Origin: a virus
Virus record (IMG/VR): IMGVR_UViG_3300043568_000184
Coordinates: 1 to 40,126 of that record
Direction: 5' to 3' (one strand)
DNA: 40,126 bases
Part shown: positions 18,086 to 40,126 of the stretch, piece by piece
Layout of the letters: every line of letters starts with the position of its first letter
How positions within the stretch are numbered: position 1 is the stretch's first letter
Notes under the pieces: generated by a model
What the model was told of the DNA's origin: nothing
Databases searched by the model: none
The model's input: only the letters and a program-made list of their open reading frames with translations
Made by a program: the position numbers and the translations under genes

Positions 18086-19325
<1,240 letters not shown>

Positions 19326-29329: not shown

Positions 29330-29796
29330 GCTTGTTCTGCCGTAACCTTTACGTAGTTTACTAATGCTCTAAATGATTCTGGTGCATCTTCTTGAGATGA
29401 CATAAGTTCTAGTGCTGGCATGTATTTCATAATCATGTCATAGTTGCCAGCCATTTGGGCTGCAGGAGTTCTTCCTGGACCTACAGGTAAACCAGATGTA
29501 ACTGGTTCATTAGGTCGTTCGCTTGGGTCAAACAAGCCAGTTACTGGTCCACCGACAGGTGCTGAGGTAGGCATAGCAGGGGCTACACCCATCACTGGAT
29601 TACCAGCCATAGGTGCACCTGACTGTGCTTCTTCTAGTGCCTTACGTTCGCCGTACTTGCCACCACCGGACATCTCACGGACACCCTGAACTGCTGACTT
29701 ACTAGATGGTCCACCATCTGTACGACGTGATAATTTACCAGGTCCTGAAACTGGAGCAGGATTGGCTGGTCTACGGTACCCACCTTGTTTAGCCAT
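29326..29796 (-). CDS. Hypothetical morphogenesis protein (156 aa)
   Basis: The N-terminal two thirds are Pro/Gly/Ala-rich and likely disordered (GGYRRPANPAPVSGPGK). The C-terminal 45 residues form a compact helical part (YDMIMKYMPALELMSSQED). It overlaps the protease gene by 8 bases and is coupled to the 55-aa gene. It could be a head-assembly adaptor or protease substrate; nothing diagnostic is visible. Confidence 0.6.
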   Translation of the reverse strand: MAKQGGYRRPANPAPVSGPGKLSRRTDGGPSSKSAVQGVREMSGGGKYGERKALEEAQSGAPMAGNPVMGVAPAMPTSAPVGGPVTGLFDPSERPNEPVTSGLPVGPGRTPAAQMAGNYDMIMKYMPALELMSSQEDAPESFRALVNYVKVTAEQA

Positions 29797-30310
29797 TTTG
29801 CTTTCCTCGTTTCACAATCTGTATTTTACCACCGCTATTAACATCAAACTTAATAGCAGTTCGCATTGCTTGTCTAATTGTAACACCAGCGTGATATGCA
29901 CCTAGTGCAAGTTCTCCACCAGTACCCATTGCATAAATTCCTGTATCGGTACGTAGTACCGAGTAATCTTCAGCAATGTAGTAAATCTTATTATCTAAAC
30001 CGATGAGAAATGAAAACCCATCTTCTTTTTCTAGAGTAGTCCCAGTAGAATCATGGGCTCTCTTTATCTCTGGCACAACCTTGCTAACCATGAAACGGTA
30101 TCCGTCAGTTCCATCGTATCTAGGTAGTTTCCATCCATATTGGACAACATCACAAAGTCTCGCATTTCCTGCACCAGCAATTACATAATCACCGTCTTCG
30201 GTAATTTTTCTAACATCACTGTGCATGTAGGGGCGTTCATTTGCAGTGACTTGACTATCTGCTGCAAACACGAAACCATTATCGTATTGTACGGCAAGAA
30301 TCGTTGTCAT
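29789..30310 (-). CDS. Proteasome beta / HslV-like Ntn-hydrolase, prohead protease candidate
   Basis: After Met the protein begins TTILAVQYDNGFVFAADS, matching the N-terminal Thr nucleophile and the AAD (Asp17) of proteasome beta and HslV subunits; a basic VRK follows at the Lys33 position. Further on, IYAMGTGGELALGAYHAG matches the conserved GSGG segment. The 173-residue length equals an HslV subunit. There is no propeptide or HslU partner. It lies between portal and virion genes, where phages encode the capsid maturation protease, so it probably processes scaffold or internal proteins. A stand-alone regulatory protease is the alternative. Confidence 0.85.
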   Translation of the reverse strand: MTTILAVQYDNGFVFAADSQVTANERPYMHSDVRKITEDGDYVIAGAGNARLCDVVQYGWKLPRYDGTDGYRFMVSKVVPEIKRAHDSTGTTLEKEDGFSFLIGLDNKIYYIAEDYSVLRTDTGIYAMGTGGELALGAYHAGVTIRQAMRTAIKFDVNSGGKIQIVKRGKQNG

Positions 30311-34445: not shown

Positions 34446-34461
34446 GGTTTCACGTGAAACA
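34446..34461. other. parS-like centromere site
   Basis: GGTTTCACGTGAAACA matches 15 of 16 bases of the chromosomal ParB site TGTTTCACGTGAAACA and contains the full 14-bp palindrome GTTTCACGTGAAAC used in actinobacteria. No ParA or ParB gene was found in the window, so host ParB would be the ligand. It lies 225 bases upstream of the helix-turn-helix gene. Confidence 0.75.
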
Positions 34462-34468
34462 TTGAACC

Positions 34469-34484
34469 CTGACAGTACCGTCAG
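34469..34484. promoter_or_regulatory. Dispersed 16-bp palindrome, copy 1
   Basis: CTGACAGTACCGTCAG, one asymmetric pair from a perfect palindrome. It lies 8 bases after the parS site and 32 bases upstream of the -35 of the promoter at 34517. It is the first of seven copies in the right arm. Confidence 0.7.
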
Positions 34485-34516
34485 AATCCCCAATGAATTG
34501 GGGTTATTGGTTCAAG

Positions 34517-34546
34517 TTGACATTGAAAGAAAAGTATGCGCATAAT
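34517..34546 (+). promoter_or_regulatory. Promoter of the helix-turn-helix gene
   Basis: A consensus -35 TTGACA (34517-34522) is followed by 18 bases and CATAAT (5 of 6 to TATAAT) at 34541-34546. Transcription would start near 34553, giving a leader of about 130 bases that includes the stem structure at 34625-34677. Confidence 0.65.
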
Positions 34547-34624
34547 TAGACATGCTCTGAATCCTCGAATGAGGTACATGGTTCAGGCGCATTGGTAATT
34601 TGAAAATTGAAAAGTGTGTATCTG

Positions 34625-34680
34625 CCTAGTGGTTATACCTTGCCCGAAAGATTTTCGGGTCGGGTGTTTCCACTAGGAGG
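34625..34680 (+). promoter_or_regulatory. Structured leader overlapping the Shine-Dalgarno
   Basis: CCTAGTGG (34625-34632) pairs perfectly with CCACTAGG (34670-34677), enclosing a perfect CCCGAAA-GAT-TTTCGGG hairpin (34643-34659). The Shine-Dalgarno AGGAGG (34675-34680) shares three bases with the outer stem, so opening and closing of the stem could control translation of the gene at 34686. The ligand or trigger is unknown. Confidence 0.6.
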
Positions 34681-34685
34681 AAATT

Positions 34686-35288
34686 ATGTCGAATCAACTA
34701 TTCGAAAACGCCGTTAAGGCTTGCAAGTCCGCCATGTCACTAAGCAACGAAACCGAGGCATTAAGTAAGCACCTCGAAACCCTGCAAGGTGAAACCGTGA
34801 GTGCCGTTGAAATCGCGTGTGCCGAGTCGTACGCGTGGTTTATCAGCGTCAATCGCAAGCATGGGGCTAAGCAGGATTTGGCAACCGCGTCAGGCGTATC
34901 AGGTAAGACTATCGGGCGTTGGATAGCGTCAGGTCATGTCGCACTTGTAACCGAAGGCAAGGCAACCGCATCACAAGTTAATTCTGCAATCGGCAACTAC
35001 TCAATGAAAATTGCTGAAGTTGAAAGAGTGCAGACATTAACCGAATGGCGCAACCTGCTTAAGGCTTACAAGGCCGTAAACAAGTCAGGCGCGGGCAAGG
35101 TAGTAGGCAAGGCCGAAACCACCGAGGCAACCGCTAAGGCAACTAAGGGTTGGAAGTCACACGCTGAAAACCTTGTTAAGTCAATCGAATCAGGTGAAGT
35201 CGGACTAATGGAAGTAATGGATTACATGACAGAATTAGTCAGCAATCTAGGGCTATCCATTGACGACATGGAAGAAATCGCAATCTAG
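34686..35288 (+). CDS. Helix-turn-helix DNA-binding protein, regulator candidate
   Basis: This 200-residue product has a helix-turn-helix around residues 61-85 (AKQDLATASGVSGKTIGRWI), followed by a helical, Lys/Ala-rich part and an acidic C-terminus (SIDDMEEIAI). AGGAGG lies directly upstream at the correct distance. It is the first rightward gene, with its own promoter, structured leader and terminator, so it is a single-gene transcript. It may bind the 16-bp palindromes, the 11-bp repeats downstream, or both. A replication initiator or repressor are the main alternatives; no family is firmly recognised. Confidence 0.7.
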   Translation: MSNQLFENAVKACKSAMSLSNETEALSKHLETLQGETVSAVEIACAESYAWFISVNRKHGAKQDLATASGVSGKTIGRWIASGHVALVTEGKATASQVNSAIGNYSMKIAEVERVQTLTEWRNLLKAYKAVNKSGAGKVVGKAETTEATAKATKGWKSHAENLVKSIESGEVGLMEVMDYMTELVSNLGLSIDDMEEIAI

Positions 35289-35303
35289 GCAGATACAGAA
35301 AAG

Positions 35304-35335
35304 TACCCCTCGAGAAATCGGGGGGTATTTTTTTT
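35304..35335 (+). terminator. Intrinsic terminator after the helix-turn-helix gene
   Basis: A 10-bp stem TACCCCTCGA / TCGGGGGGTA (one T-G pair) with a GAAA loop at 35304-35327 is followed by eight T (35328-35335). This is a textbook factor-independent terminator 15 bases after the stop codon. Confidence 0.9.
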
Positions 35336-35344
35336 GTCTTGAAA

Positions 35345-35360
35345 CTGACAGTACTGTCAG
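35345..35360. promoter_or_regulatory. Dispersed 16-bp palindrome, copy 2
   Basis: CTGACAGTACTGTCAG is a perfect palindrome lying 10 bases after the terminator T-run and 12 bases before the tandem repeats. Confidence 0.7.
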
Positions 35361-35372
35361 ACCTATCTCTTT

Positions 35373-35438
35373 GCTGGTGTATGACTGGTGTGTGGCTGGT
35401 GTATTGCTGTTGTTTTGCTGGTGTATTACTGATGTGCG
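35373..35438. repeat. Six 11-bp tandem repeats (iteron-like)
   Basis: Units are GCTGGTGTATG, ACTGGTGTGTG, GCTGGTGTATT, GCTGTTGTTTT, GCTGGTGTATT and ACTGATGTGCG, giving consensus RCTGGTGTATT. The 11-bp period keeps sites on one face of the helix, as in plasmid iterons and cooperative operator arrays. The array lies between the helix-turn-helix gene and the next operon and holds no credible gene. Confidence 0.8.
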
Positions 35439-35472
35439 ACTTGACTTGAGAATAGAATGGATAGGTGGTAGA

Positions 35473-35498
35473 CTTGACGTAGTCAAGGTGATAATCAC
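35473..35498. promoter_or_regulatory. Two adjacent palindromes (CTTGAC-GTA-GTCAAG and GTGATAATCAC)
   Basis: CTTGAC (35473-35478) and GTCAAG (35482-35487) form a perfect inverted repeat, and GTGATAATCAC (35488-35498) is itself symmetric. Both sit just before the third CTGAC palindrome and the start of the 35541 operon. They are operator candidates, possibly covering a promoter with GATAAT as its -10. Confidence 0.45.
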
Positions 35499-35505
35499 AC
35501 TGACC

Positions 35506-35521
35506 CTGACAGTACCGTCAG
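35506..35521. promoter_or_regulatory. Dispersed 16-bp palindrome, copy 3
   Basis: CTGACAGTACCGTCAG, followed after 5 bases by the Shine-Dalgarno AAAGGA of the gene at 35541. The placement would allow a bound protein to block transcription into, or translation of, the operon. Confidence 0.7.
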
Positions 35522-35540
35522 GATTACGAAAGGATAGCCG

Positions 35541-35765
35541 ATGGCTAAAGGTAACGGGATACGGGGTATTCGTGGGCATAACGTGCCTACCTATCGAGTG
35601 CTACGAAGTGCCTCCTATGTATCGGTCAGGGGTAAGCCACGCCATGCACCACGCAAGGCTAGTGCTACTGCTGTACGGGTGGCATACACACAGGACACTA
35701 TCAACCAAGCGATAGCCAAACTGACAGTACTGTCACAACTTGATAATAGAACTGCTAGGAGTTAA
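35541..35765 (+). CDS. Small basic hypothetical protein (74 aa)
   Basis: AAAGGA precedes the ATG at a suitable distance. The product is Arg/Lys-rich (GNGIRGIRGHNVPTYRVLR, VRGKPRHAPRKAS), suggesting nucleic-acid binding. Its C-terminal codons overlap palindrome copy 4 (KLTVLSQ). It is the first gene of the small-protein operon. The family is unknown. Confidence 0.6.
   Translation: MAKGNGIRGIRGHNVPTYRVLRSASYVSVRGKPRHAPRKASATAVRVAYTQDTINQAIAKLTVLSQLDNRTARS
35721..35736. promoter_or_regulatory. Dispersed 16-bp palindrome, copy 4
   Basis: CTGACAGTACTGTCAC, one base from a perfect palindrome, lies inside the 3' end of the 74-aa gene and 30 bases before the next start codon. Confidence 0.6.
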
Positions 35766-36300: not shown

Positions 36301-36478
36301 GGCACACATGACCGCGCTGTACTGGTACAACACTGAACTTGATAAACTAATCAAGGTCGGCTATGCTAGTGGTGAAGCACACAAGATACTCATGGACAGG
36401 CTTGCCACCATGAATAGTATCGAGTGGATGGAACCAACCAACAACCTGACGGTACCGTCAGAACAGGAGGCACTCTGA
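36293..36478 (+). CDS. Hypothetical protein (61 aa)
   Basis: GGAGG lies six bases before ATG 36293. The product (AKAHMTALYWYNTELDKLIK and HKILMDRLATMNSIEWME) is helical. Its last codons, NLTVPSEQE, are written by palindrome copy 5, and the stop overlaps the next ATG by one base. No family is recognised. Confidence 0.6.
   Translation: MAKAHMTALYWYNTELDKLIKVGYASGEAHKILMDRLATMNSIEWMEPTNNLTVPSEQEAL
36446..36461. promoter_or_regulatory. Dispersed 16-bp palindrome, copy 5
   Basis: CTGACGGTACCGTCAG is a perfect palindrome inside the end of the 61-aa gene, just before the AGGAGG of the amidoligase gene. Binding here could specifically limit the amidoligase/amidotransferase pair. Confidence 0.7.
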
Positions 36479-37677
36479 TGAGTGAGATAGATACAACATC
36501 TCTCGATGTTGAGGTAGATGAACGACAGGTGGTGTGTTGTTATGGTACATGCACTAATACCATAGACATGGACAATGACACATACGCACTTGATAGCGCA
36601 GAAGATGCGTACTGTGAGGCTCACATCTTCCTATGCAACTGGTGTGACTGCACATTCCCAGACACTGAGGTGCATGATAACTTCGCTGGTTACTGCCACC
36701 CATGTGGTAACAGAATGTCATCATGTGACAGGTGTGGTCAGGTTCAACATGAGAACGACATGTACAGTGTAAGCAATGACGACTGGTGCAATAACTGTTA
36801 CGAGCATCACTCTCGACACTGCCCTCGTTGTGATTATAGTTACGACCCTAGAAATGGTAGGTGTTGTGGTGGTACTCATGATGTTGAGGACTATAGTTAC
36901 AAGCCGTATCCTCAGTTTCATTGGGTAGAGAATGACCCTGATGCTGACCGACGTGTATTCATGGGCTTCGAGTTAGAGGTAGAGTCTGACGGCGAAACCT
37001 ATGACGGTCCGGAACTGGTGCGCTTACATCTAGGTGACCTTGTTTACTTCAAGGAAGACGGCTCACTAGATGACGGCTTCGAGATAGTCACACACCCAAT
37101 GACCCTTGCCTATGCACACAGCATAGACTGGGCATGGACTAAAGGACTACTCGACAAGGGCTATCGCTCATGGGACAGGAGTTCGTGTGGCTTACATGTG
37201 CACGTTGATAGACGTGGCTTCAATGGTAGGTTGCATCAGTACTCATTCACGCTGTTGCTCATGCGTAACAAGGCTTTGTCTTACCTAATTGCAGGCAGGC
37301 AGGGCAACTCGTATGCATCCTTTGACAAGGGTATGCGTACAGAAATACCTAAACATCTAAAGGGTCAAGACAACTGTGTCCAGCGATACTCAGCGGTCAA
37401 TGTCCTACCAACAGCCACCCTTGAAGTGCGTATGTTCAAGGGTTCACTAAAGAAAGAACGCATACTTGCTGCACTTGAGTATGTGCATAGTGCCGTTGAG
37501 TATTCACGCGGTGCTAGGTCAGGTGTTGGTGCTGAGGAATACTTAACAGCACCTGCATTTATCCAATGGTTACGAGGTCGCAAGGACTTGTATCCAAATC
37601 TATTAAGTTACATAAATCAATCAGTCGAGTTCGGCTTTAGTGAGAAGTCCTATACTTCTCAGAATAATGGAGAGTAA
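36478..37677 (+). CDS. Amidoligase-like enzyme with N-terminal Cys-rich zinc region
   Basis: The start chosen is ATG 36478, which has AGGAGG upstream; an upstream in-frame start at 36424 lies within the previous gene. Residues about 15-130 hold many CxxC and CxC pairs (CNWCDC, CHPCGNRMSSCDRCG, CNNCYEHHSRHCPRC), probably several zinc ribbons. Residues about 160-390 match the amidoligase (glutamine-synthetase-like COOH-NH2 ligase) pattern: FMGFELEVES, GFEIVTHPMT, CGLHVHVDR and TATLEVRMFKG, with likely Glu/His metal ligands. It should join a carboxyl to an amine using ATP. It is followed directly by a glutamine amidotransferase, which can supply ammonia. The substrate is unknown. Confidence 0.75.
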   Translation: MSEIDTTSLDVEVDERQVVCCYGTCTNTIDMDNDTYALDSAEDAYCEAHIFLCNWCDCTFPDTEVHDNFAGYCHPCGNRMSSCDRCGQVQHENDMYSVSNDDWCNNCYEHHSRHCPRCDYSYDPRNGRCCGGTHDVEDYSYKPYPQFHWVENDPDADRRVFMGFELEVESDGETYDGPELVRLHLGDLVYFKEDGSLDDGFEIVTHPMTLAYAHSIDWAWTKGLLDKGYRSWDRSSCGLHVHVDRRGFNGRLHQYSFTLLLMRNKALSYLIAGRQGNSYASFDKGMRTEIPKHLKGQDNCVQRYSAVNVLPTATLEVRMFKGSLKKERILAALEYVHSAVEYSRGARSGVGAEEYLTAPAFIQWLRGRKDLYPNLLSYINQSVEFGFSEKSYTSQNNGE

Positions 37678-37679
37678 TT

Positions 37680-38576
37680 ATGTGTATGTTATGTGTATCC
37701 CTGCCAGGGTCACGACCAACACGCGAGCAGTTAGAGATTGCTTGCTACAACAACAGCGATGGCTTCGGCTATGCAGTACATCACGGCGACCACATTGTGG
37801 CTGGTCGTGGTATGCGAGTAGACGTAACCATTGACAGGTTCTTTGCTGAGTTAGATAAGAATCCTGATGCTATCGGTATGTTCCACGCACGTCTTACCAC
37901 ACACGGTACGACACACGTTGAGAACAATCACCCATTCAGGGTTGACGGTCGCAAAGACATTGTGTTAGGTCACAATGGTATGCTTCCGGTCACGCTCAAA
38001 CCTGGTGACAAACGCTCGGATACCCGTGTGTTTGCTGAAGATTTGCTACCTAACATGGGTGTTGATGTACTCGATGACCCCGTATACTTCAAGCAACTAG
38101 AGGAGTGGGCTAAGGGTAGCAAGATTGCTATCTTGAGTACATCACCTGACTTACAGCAAGAGGTATACATTCTCAATGAGAAGGACGGTCACTGGGCTGA
38201 CGGTGTGTGGTGGTCTAACACCTCATACAAGTCACGCAGTTACTGGGCTACCAGTTACACTGGTGGGTATTACAATGGCTATGCATCTAAGGAGGACTAT
38301 GACTTCTTCGAGAGAGACAAGCATCTACTGCTATCATCTGATGAATTGTTAGATGCTGACGGTACCGTCAGAACTATCTATGATGTGTGCTACCATTGCT
38401 ACTCACACCTACGAGAGGACGACTACAACGAGGGTGCTTGCACTGCATGCAATACATGTATAGACTGCAACGAACACATGGCACACTGCATGTGCTACAA
38501 TCCTAACAGTACTGTTAGAAGTAACGACTACTGGTGGAAGCAAGAACAACAACAACTAGAGAAATTGGATTGGTAA
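37680..38576 (+). CDS. Class II glutamine amidotransferase with Cys-rich C-terminus
   Basis: The protein begins MCMLCVSLPG, so Met removal would expose Cys2 as the Ntn glutaminase nucleophile. NSDGFGYAV, FHARLTTHGT and LGHNGMLPV match the glutamine-binding parts of the class II family. The C-terminal region (about residues 235-280) adds CYHCYSHLRED, CTACNTCIDCNEHMAHCMC, a zinc-ribbon-like cluster as in its partner gene. It starts three bases after the amidoligase stop. It probably releases ammonia from glutamine for the ligase. Palindrome copies 6 and 7 lie inside it and encode DGTVR and NSTVR. Confidence 0.8.
   Translation: MCMLCVSLPGSRPTREQLEIACYNNSDGFGYAVHHGDHIVAGRGMRVDVTIDRFFAELDKNPDAIGMFHARLTTHGTTHVENNHPFRVDGRKDIVLGHNGMLPVTLKPGDKRSDTRVFAEDLLPNMGVDVLDDPVYFKQLEEWAKGSKIAILSTSPDLQQEVYILNEKDGHWADGVWWSNTSYKSRSYWATSYTGGYYNGYASKEDYDFFERDKHLLLSSDELLDADGTVRTIYDVCYHCYSHLREDDYNEGACTACNTCIDCNEHMAHCMCYNPNSTVRSNDYWWKQEQQQLEKLDW
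38356..38371. promoter_or_regulatory. Dispersed 16-bp palindrome, copy 6
   Basis: CTGACGGTACCGTCAG, perfect and identical to copy 5, lies within the amidotransferase gene, where it encodes ADGTVR. Confidence 0.65.
38503..38518. promoter_or_regulatory. Dispersed 16-bp palindrome, copy 7 (variant)
   Basis: CTAACAGTACTGTTAG is a perfect palindrome in which both half-sites carry the same change (CTAAC for CTGAC). Symmetric change on both arms suggests that symmetry itself is selected. It lies within the amidotransferase gene. Confidence 0.55.
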
Positions 38577-38577
38577 C

Positions 38578-38880
38578 ATGACCGAGACTATTAAGATTAC
38601 ATATGAAGTTGAGTACTTCTACCATGAGATACTCAAGGACATGCTGGACAGTGGTGAGTATGGGTTGGGACAGCATCCTGTAACTGACGAGGCTATTATA
38701 TACAATGCACTAGACAAGTTCATTACCATGAGCGGTGGTATCCCTATGATTCCATCAGCCCTTGACCAAGCAGGTGTACTCACAGTAGAAGATGATAGGG
38801 GAGAACTTCTCTATCAATTCCCAGGGTACAACACACTAGCGCAAAGAGAGGATGACCATGATTCGCGAGTATTTCAATGA
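38578..38880 (+). CDS. Hypothetical protein (100 aa)
   Basis: The product TETIKITYEVEYFYHEILKD continues with EAIIYNALDKFITMSGG and GVLTVEDDRGELLYQFPG. A mixed alpha/beta small acidic protein is suggested. It starts one base after the amidotransferase stop and overlaps the WhiB-like gene by 23 bases. The family is unknown. Confidence 0.6.
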   Translation: MTETIKITYEVEYFYHEILKDMLDSGEYGLGQHPVTDEAIIYNALDKFITMSGGIPMIPSALDQAGVLTVEDDRGELLYQFPGYNTLAQREDDHDSRVFQ

Positions 38881-39358
38881 GGTTATGCTTGACGTAAGGT
38901 CAATCGCTGCCGAATCAAAGATAGATTTGTTTGAGTTCCGGTCGCGAGACGGTGGTAACCCTGCCTCCATGCCGGTCAGAAATCGCCAGAAGATGAGTGA
39001 CTTGGTGCTTGAACTACCTGACTTTGAGAATGCATCATGCAAGGGCATTGGACATCAGGCTTTCTATGATGATGGACTAGAGGTTGAAGCACCGATAGAC
39101 CAAGACGATACAATCTGGTCCTCAAACAAGCCAGTGCAACATGCATACCTCAGGCGTATGTGTCTGTCATGTCCAGTAGTACAAGAGTGCAGGGAGTGGG
39201 GCATAACACGTGAGAGGTATGGGTTCTGGGGTGGCATGACTGCTACTGAACGTGAGTCAGAGCGCATCATGCGTGGCATCAGAGTCAATGAGATAGACTA
39301 TCAAGTACACATAGGAAAGGTAGAAGTTAATATGGGAGGTGATGAAGATGAGCAATAG
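38858..39358 (+). CDS. WhiB-like transcriptional regulator
   Basis: The start chosen is ATG 38858, six bases after AGAGAGG; ATG 38852 is the alternative. Cys61, Cys102, Cys105 and Cys111 (SCKG, then MCLSCPVVQEC) give the four iron-sulphur ligands, followed by GFWGGMTATERE, the WhiB signature turn that contacts sigma factor. WhiB proteins are restricted to actinobacteria and their phages, where they bind the primary sigma factor and alter transcription. It is near the end of the small-gene operon. The N-terminal 55 residues are longer than in minimal WhiB proteins. Confidence 0.85.
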   Translation: MIREYFNEVMLDVRSIAAESKIDLFEFRSRDGGNPASMPVRNRQKMSDLVLELPDFENASCKGIGHQAFYDDGLEVEAPIDQDDTIWSSNKPVQHAYLRRMCLSCPVVQECREWGITRERYGFWGGMTATERESERIMRGIRVNEIDYQVHIGKVEVNMGGDEDEQ

Positions 39359-39572
39359 TTTACATGGGTCAGGCTGGTTTACCAGTGAGAGAAGTGACGA
39401 CTGGGATTGCCCTGAGTGTGGCATTGAGGTCATTGACATAGACGTACCGGCAGATGATGACGGCACTACCGTTAGTTACTGTCCTGAATGTAATTACGAA
39501 AAGATAATTACAGATGAGCAACGTCTTGAGTGGACCACTGATTATGATAGCGAGCAAGACTATGGAAGATAA
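39348..39572 (+). CDS. Small zinc-ribbon protein (74 aa)
   Basis: The start chosen is ATG 39348 (MSNSLHGSGW), eight bases after GGGAGG; ATG 39342 is too close to that site. Two CPEC knuckles (DCPECGIEV and YCPECNYEK) form a classic zinc ribbon, followed by an acidic C-terminus. It could be an RNA-polymerase- or DNA-associated accessory protein. It overlaps the WhiB-like gene by 11 bases. Confidence 0.65.
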   Translation: MSNSLHGSGWFTSERSDDWDCPECGIEVIDIDVPADDDGTTVSYCPECNYEKIITDEQRLEWTTDYDSEQDYGR

Positions 39573-39862: not shown

Positions 39863-40126
39863 GAACAAGGAAGAAGGAACTTGATGCTATCTCTGATGCA
39901 TTGTCACGACCCGCCGAATCGGTGGATGAATTAGCCAAAGACGTATGGGACCTGATAGATTCATACCGTAGGGAAAGAGATGTGTACGTGGTGGGTGTTA
40001 ACTACCAGGGGGTTGGACAATTTCTCTTTGGACCTTACGAGTCAGAGGCTATGGCTACCAAAGACTTCGAGGGTCGAGGTAACATACAAGCACTCAAGTC
40101 CGGTGACGTGGCAAGGGTATTCAAGG
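39859..40126 (+). CDS. Hypothetical protein, 5' part (continues at base 1)
   Basis: ATG 39859 overlaps the previous TGA, with AGGAG four bases upstream. The frame is open to the end of the contig and continues in frame from base 158 at the other end, giving about 110 residues in total. The N-terminus RTRKKELDAISDALSRPAES is charged and helical. The last 157 bases repeat 1-157. Confidence 0.8.
   Translation, partial: MRTRKKELDAISDALSRPAESVDELAKDVWDLIDSYRRERDVYVVGVNYQGVGQFLFGPYESEAMATKDFEGRGNIQALKSGDVARVFK
39970..40126. repeat. Terminal overlap, right copy
   Basis: Partner of 1-157, about 96 percent identical. Trimming one copy gives a unit genome of about 39,969 bp. Confidence 0.9.

Follow-up and report, generated by a model that had tools for sequence, protein, structure and literature searches.

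Two genes that stand side by side in the early arm of a viral genome, one resembling an ATP-dependent ligase and the other a glutamine amidotransferase, raise the question of whether they encode one enzyme and what such an enzyme may act upon. The window, by which we mean the whole stretch of DNA analysed here, comprises the 40126 bp of a virus record, the ends of which share a 157-bp repeat with 96% identity (151/157). Joined at this repeat, the ends would probably give a circle of about 40.0 kb; given the end repeat, the window is close to a complete genome, and its early arm spans from 34.7 kb past the join to about 5.8 kb. Genes of this arm encode an HTH-like protein, small ORFs, the ligase/amidotransferase pair, a WhiB-like protein, an exonuclease, a helicase, a primase, a metallophosphoesterase and a sigma-like factor, while the structural genes lie on the opposite strand. 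Among the latter, an HslV/proteasome-like protease gene (29789-30310, minus strand; Pfam Proteasome 2.6e-6, PHROG 1040) directly follows the portal gene, the place expected for a prohead protease. No DNA-level similarity to known phages was found. The terminase is nearest, among named relatives, to the terminases of Streptomyces phages, which together with the WhiB-like gene suggests an actinobacterial host. The following features are referred to below:

1-157 and 39970-40126: end repeat, near-identical copies
34469..35736: span of four palindrome copies (at 34469, 35345, 35506 and 35721) around the putative regulator gene and small early ORFs
34686..35288, + strand: putative HTH regulator, 200 aa; its HTH covaries with the palindrome in relatives
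36446..36461: palindromic operator CTGACGGTACCGTCAG, 3 bp before the ligase ribosome-binding site (RBS)
36478..37677, + strand: predicted amidoligase (GS/GCS-fold carboxylate-amine ligase), 399 aa; Pfam, PHROGs, conservation, AlphaFold2, Foldseek
36535..36870, + strand: N-terminal Cys module of the ligase; conservation, LIM match, AlphaFold2
37680..38576, + strand: predicted class II glutamine amidotransferase (Ntn hydrolase, Cys2), 298 aa; Pfam, PHROGs, conservation, AlphaFold2, Foldseek
38356..38371: second perfect copy of the palindrome, within the amidotransferase ORF
38388..38495, + strand: C-terminal Cys module of the amidotransferase, C237xxC-x13-CxxCxxCxxC-x6-CxC272
38503..38518: palindrome variant CTAACAGTACTGTTAG, within the amidotransferase ORF, after its Cys module
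38852..39358, + strand: WhiB-like regulator, downstream of the pair; Pfam and PHROGs

The earlier note had placed the pair at 36478-38576, which is correct, and had read it as an ATP-dependent carboxylate-amine ligase fold adjoining a class II amidotransferase, an assignment borne out by profiles, models and conserved active sites alike. The ligase starts with an ATG at 36478, the position at which the upstream ORF ends, behind an RBS (AGGAGG, 36465-36470), and stops at 37675-37677. Counting the ATG as residue 1, residues from about 20 to 131 make up a LIM-like Cys module and residues from about 160 to 345 the ligase core. The protein scores 21.0 bits (E=3e-4) against Pfam Amidoligase_2 (PF12224), whose gathering cut-off is 22, and relatives of the same architecture pass with 29.7-48 bits; the proteins of the pair match PHROGs 16683, 22302 and 25883 at E=1e-25 to 1e-36. 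An AlphaFold2 model built from 75 sequences (mean pLDDT 88) matched YbdK (E=1.3e-5), GS (7.7e-5), PafA (4.6e-4) and also GmaS in Foldseek, with TM-scores of about 0.3 when taken over the whole query including its extensions. The core motifs GxExE, DGSL..G.EIV.HP, CGLHVHV and R..VN...EVR.F are present. Residues G163, E165, E167, D194, S196, E202, P207, H240, H242 and R274, as well as R303, N308, E316 and R318, are 100% conserved in 126 viral relatives; the key residues are also invariant in the 75-sequence set that includes bacteria, and 17 columns, C83 among them, remained so after Ruminococcus and other bacterial sequences (27-31% identity) had been added. On sequence and modelled fold, the window ligase is an intact member of the amidoligase / COOH-NH2 ligase superfamily with the GS/GCS fold.

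The amidotransferase reaches 22.8 bits (E=1e-4) against Pfam GATase_6, with a cut-off of 27, and its AlphaFold2 model (mean pLDDT 82) matches human GFAT-1, the glutaminase domain of E. coli GlmS and EgtC with E-values of 4e-7 to 1e-4. Its glutaminase set is complete (C2, H69, R71, T74-H75-G76, N82-H84-P85, H98-N99-G100 and D114; 99-100% in 130 relatives), and alignment and model identify it as an intact class II (Cys2) glutamine amidotransferase. The earlier note had named the loss of Cys2 or of the acidic and His residues of the ligase in relatives as evidence that would speak against the pair; neither was found, C2 being 100% conserved in 130 sequences and the E/E/E/H/H/R/R/N/E/R set 100% in 126. 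Between the window and close relatives, dN/dS is 0.13-0.29 for the ligase and 0.10-0.19 for the amidotransferase, and both genes are under purifying selection. In locus L007 (3585-4488), on a contig that shares about 98% identity with the window, the amidotransferase is split over two overlapping frames by a frameshift or a sequencing error.

How tightly the two genes belong together was assessed by scanning IMG/VR with either protein as query, with the same result in both directions. Among the matches listed, 134 of 136 distinct viral ligase loci have the two genes side by side, whichever partner served as query. An amidotransferase within -200 to +300 nt after the ligase accompanies 133/136 viral ligase ORFs, and locus L016 counts as paired once annotated starts are used. 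One of the two unpaired loci lies at a contig end; the other, Clostridioides phage AR1086-1, is a true exception, for which tblastn with two different amidotransferases found no partner. Since viral and bacterial loci were drawn with the pair genes as queries (best 80 matches), the adjacency fraction is valid for this subfamily and not for all amidoligases. In bacteria, mostly Ruminococcus/Clostridia, 73 of the 80 loci among the matches listed have a clustered amidotransferase, which is the next gene in 69, and DUF960 precedes the ligase in 51/80. Serine recombinase, relaxase-like and integrase genes (assigned by eye) lie nearby, and in these gut bacteria the pairs apparently sit on mobilizable elements. 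A mycobacterial plasmid carries the pair with both Cys modules, its amidotransferase being annotated from an internal start. Purifying selection together with near-constant adjacency argues that the pair is more than a chance arrangement; it is a real, intact and conserved enzyme pair, and its biochemistry can be predicted with fair confidence.

Evolutionary distances of ligase and amidotransferase correlate with r=0.93 in 24 common loci. The excess over WhiB or terminase controls is modest and could reflect linkage; as these controls reach 0.82-0.88, the mirror-tree test was set aside as proof of partnership. The neighbourhood was likewise dropped as a guide to the substrate, because the conserved neighbours (WhiB, terminase, sigma factor, metallophosphoesterase) are general phage genes. 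A WhiB-like gene is near the pair in 52 of the 76 representative viral loci (<80% identity). Beside WhiB in the window, at 39339-39572, a small zinc-ribbon-like protein with two CxxC knuckles matches many Pfam zinc-ribbon families weakly. Other amidoligases occur in different settings: those of L017 (3698-4810) and L260 (4683-5804), from a Clostridioides phage and a Clostridioides plasmid, have neither a Cys module nor an adjacent amidotransferase. In two Ruminococcus flavefaciens loci (L263, L264) a second amidoligase, canonical (192 bits to PF12224) and devoid of a Cys module, lies near a GGCT-like gene; the same genomes hold several LIM-type ligase copies.

The Cys-rich modules that the earlier note had seen in both proteins are present, and they are conserved to the same degree as the active sites. 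In the ligase, 13 cysteines within the N-terminal 130 residues (C20, C25, C53, C56, C73, C76, C83, C86, C104, C107, C115, C118 and C130) are each 89-99% conserved in 126 relatives, and pLDDT is mostly 90-95 across the module, which probably has three to four predicted zinc sites. The eight C-terminal cysteines of the amidotransferase are 95-99% conserved in 130 relatives. By their cysteine patterns, both modules would be of the zinc-binding type. A PDB profile search with the ligase module placed LIM proteins on top (E=7e-4), the Pfam LIM profile passed its cut-off in a Ruminococcus relative (E=3e-6), the score given for relative L206 being 27.8 bits against a cut-off of 22.9, while the Pfam scan of the window ligase itself reported no LIM match; UniProt names one viral protein of the ligase fold 'LIM domain containing protein'. 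The knuckles are tandem CxxC-x16/17-CxxC with a finger-pair spacing of 6, compared with 2 in classical LIM. LIM is mostly a protein-binding domain, and this closest likeness favours contacts of the module with protein over nucleic acid. The earlier note's further proposals, that the modules bind nucleic acid or each other and that a host protein, wall peptide or nucleotide is modified, are conjectural.

The modules might be thought merely to dock the two subunits, an idea that AR1086-1, whose ligase has neither module nor partner, would fit. It was rejected in view of pairs that do without: Arthrobacter phage Ottawa keeps the pair with a Cys module in neither partner, and LUZ24 gp18 has its partner and no LIM-like module. 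The modules are therefore dispensable for pairing, and Ottawa and AR1086-1 together indicate that neither modules nor partner are essential to the fold. The Clostridial amidotransferases inspected also have no C-terminal Cys module.

The early location and the palindromic operator, both pointed out in the earlier note, were likewise found. A 16-bp palindrome, CTGAC(A/G)GTAC(C/T)GTCAG, occurs seven times, exactly or as a close variant, from 34.4 to 38.6 kb; elsewhere in the window a search with up to 4 mismatches gave a single match, at 18122, which is not palindromic. Close relatives (L002-L013) keep the palindrome at the same place before the ligase. Palindrome positions in general are conserved in relatives, and the sequence shifts in step with the HTH: KTIGR(W/Y) goes with CTGAC half-sites (window, L002, L004, L008, L010, L012 and L013, and L009 with CTGACT), and MTVSRY (L003, L006, L007) with CTAAC half-sites upstream of the pair. 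L004 is an exception in that its -29 site reads CTAAC; the same reading occurs in L005, where the HTH gene lies outside the covered sequence. This covariation supports the protein encoded at 34686-35288 as the predicted binder of the palindrome. The role of the two copies inside the amidotransferase ORF is less sure, since they do not always switch with the others, and codon conservation beneath them gave no clear excess, with too few codons. Taken together, a predicted phage regulator/operator system of dispersed operators and an HTH protein, with specificity variants and two sites within a coding gene, is well supported. In the same region, a perfect parS-like site, GTTTCACGTGAAAC, lies at 34447-34460, a short way upstream of both an operator and the HTH gene; it is also perfect in L003 and L008, and the other loci have none within 2 mismatches. 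Five tandem 11-nt repeats, GCTGGTGTATT-like, occupy 35370-35441 between operators.

Fold, conservation and pairing make it rather probable, in our judgement, that the pair specifies a single glutamine-dependent amidating enzyme of two subunits. The Cys2 Ntn-hydrolase subunit would hydrolyse glutamine and free ammonia, which we infer to pass to the GS/GCS-fold subunit; the latter would phosphorylate a carboxylate with ATP-Mg, and ammonia would displace the phosphate to yield a primary amide. The Cys-rich modules of the two subunits (LIM-like in the ligase), with their presumed zinc, may keep the complex assembled, contact the target, or both; the target would more likely be a protein or peptide than a nucleic acid. 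Expression would be early and under the palindrome-binding HTH regulator. The more specific proposal of a zinc-module-targeted protein- or peptide-amidating enzyme of phages, plasmids and mobilizable elements, which converts specific carboxylates to amides for host takeover or protection, is tentative and rather doubtful, target and benefit to the phage both being inferred.

The modelled fold of the amidotransferase also fits a gamma-glutamyl amidohydrolase such as EgtC, and the significant Foldseek matches include EgtC, which has the top target-normalised TM-scores (0.49-0.51). The pair could then run an EgtA-EgtC-type cycle without ammonia channelling, in which the ligase, whose fold is that of the gamma-glutamyl ligase relative YbdK, couples an amine to glutamate or another amino acid and the gamma-glutamyl bond is later cut by the Ntn hydrolase. 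The conserved R71 and D114 bind the gamma-glutamyl moiety under either reading. However, GlmS-type proteins have the best E-values in sequence as well as fold comparisons, and no other small-molecule pathway gene is conserved beside the pair, EgtB/EgtD ergothioneine genes included, so that we consider such a cycle unlikely. The pair could instead amidate a carboxylated base of phage DNA, a role proposed for glutaminase-bearing CmoY relatives; this would agree with a possible DNA binding by the zinc modules and with the known amide ligation to 5-carboxymethylcytosine in phage DNA, where a ligase cluster has a glutaminase domain (PMC12783734). Yet CmoA, CmoX and other base-carboxylating or methyltransferase genes were not recognised among the window genes scanned with Pfam and PHROGs (several ORFs are matchless), the ligase module resembles a mostly protein-binding domain, and the pair is also found on Clostridial mobile elements, all of which makes this hypermodification very improbable.

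A further possibility concerns the target and is compatible with the amidating enzyme that we prefer: the pair may be a minimal LUZ24/phiEco32 'peptidoglycan modification' module that amidates or ligates a wall peptide precursor, altering the wall or blocking superinfection. It gains from LUZ24, in which the amidoligase gp18 directly precedes the GlmS-like class II amidotransferase gp19 in the early region, and from the wall prediction of Iyer 2009, which is repeated in PMC10580990, PMC5498523, PMC11318856 and PMC11945000, although the wall function is itself a prediction, of which these papers report no test in their accessible text. As far as that text goes, published statements on function trace to one comparative-genomics paper, and the citing papers suggest that the wall is modified or superinfection excluded. 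Against it, the LUZ24-type GGCT, ATP-grasp/RimK and second COOH-NH2 ligase had no match among all ORFs of the loci in a single-sequence phmmer search with LUZ24 gp16, gp21 and gp22, which divergent copies could escape, and gp18 does not share the LIM-like module of the window ligase. The amidoligase cassette was not located in the first 40 kb of phiEco32. We regard a wall target as possible, if still the minority expectation.

What sets this variant of a known enzyme kind apart is its reduction to a two-gene core, nearly inseparable across unrelated mobile elements, with cysteine modules in both partners conserved as strongly as the active sites; the operator system is gained as a by-product. 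Within the literature that could be searched, neither the two conserved Cys modules nor the occurrence of the two-gene core on mobilizable elements was found to be described. The system is small and expressible, and mass spectrometry could detect its product directly. If true, zinc-module-targeted amidation would be a previously undescribed mechanism of post-translational takeover.

Phage annotations have included amidoligase/amidotransferase pairs for more than ten years, and the family, which the earlier note also described as known from comparative genomics, is on record in Marvin, OM43 phages and the LUZ24-type cassette and its relatives. Beyond this family, MurT has a Mur-ligase fold and GatD is a class I GATase, unlike the window pair. 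MurT-GatD, which amidates D-Glu of peptidoglycan, is nevertheless a precedent of another fold for a two-gene, glutamine-fed amidating enzyme and resembles the proposed pair in principle, as an ATP-dependent ligase with a glutamine amidotransferase subunit, with no homology claimed (PMC3267633). The LUZ24 cassette comprises five enzymes (two ligases, GAT, ATP-grasp and GGCT) instead of the two genes of the window. In the Methylophilales phages MEP401/402 (OM43), the adjacent pair lies in the early region ahead of primase and helicase, as in the window, and it has been annotated as amidoligase (PF12224) and GATase (PF13522) (PMC10580990), but the N-terminus of the ligase is long, unrelated and carries a single CxxC..CxxC knuckle, and the GATase has no C-terminal Cys module. 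The Ruminococcus/Clostridia ligases share the tandem CxxC-x(n)-CxxC N-terminal module and the adjacent class II GAT, whereas the latter is closer to GlmS and without the C-terminal module; here the setting consists of DUF960, serine recombinase, relaxase-like and integrase neighbours, with several copies per genome. Mycobacteriophage Marvin (cluster S) has adjacent ligase and amidotransferase genes (gp105/gp106) in the same order, at the far right genome end, unlike the window. At about 30% identity, similarity covers 73% of the ligase sequence and 97% of that of the amidotransferase, and although gp105 differs from the window ligase in its shorter N-terminal Cys module and longer C-terminal extension, gp106 keeps the C-terminal Cys module (CxxC..CxxCxxCxxC..CxCY) as in the window.
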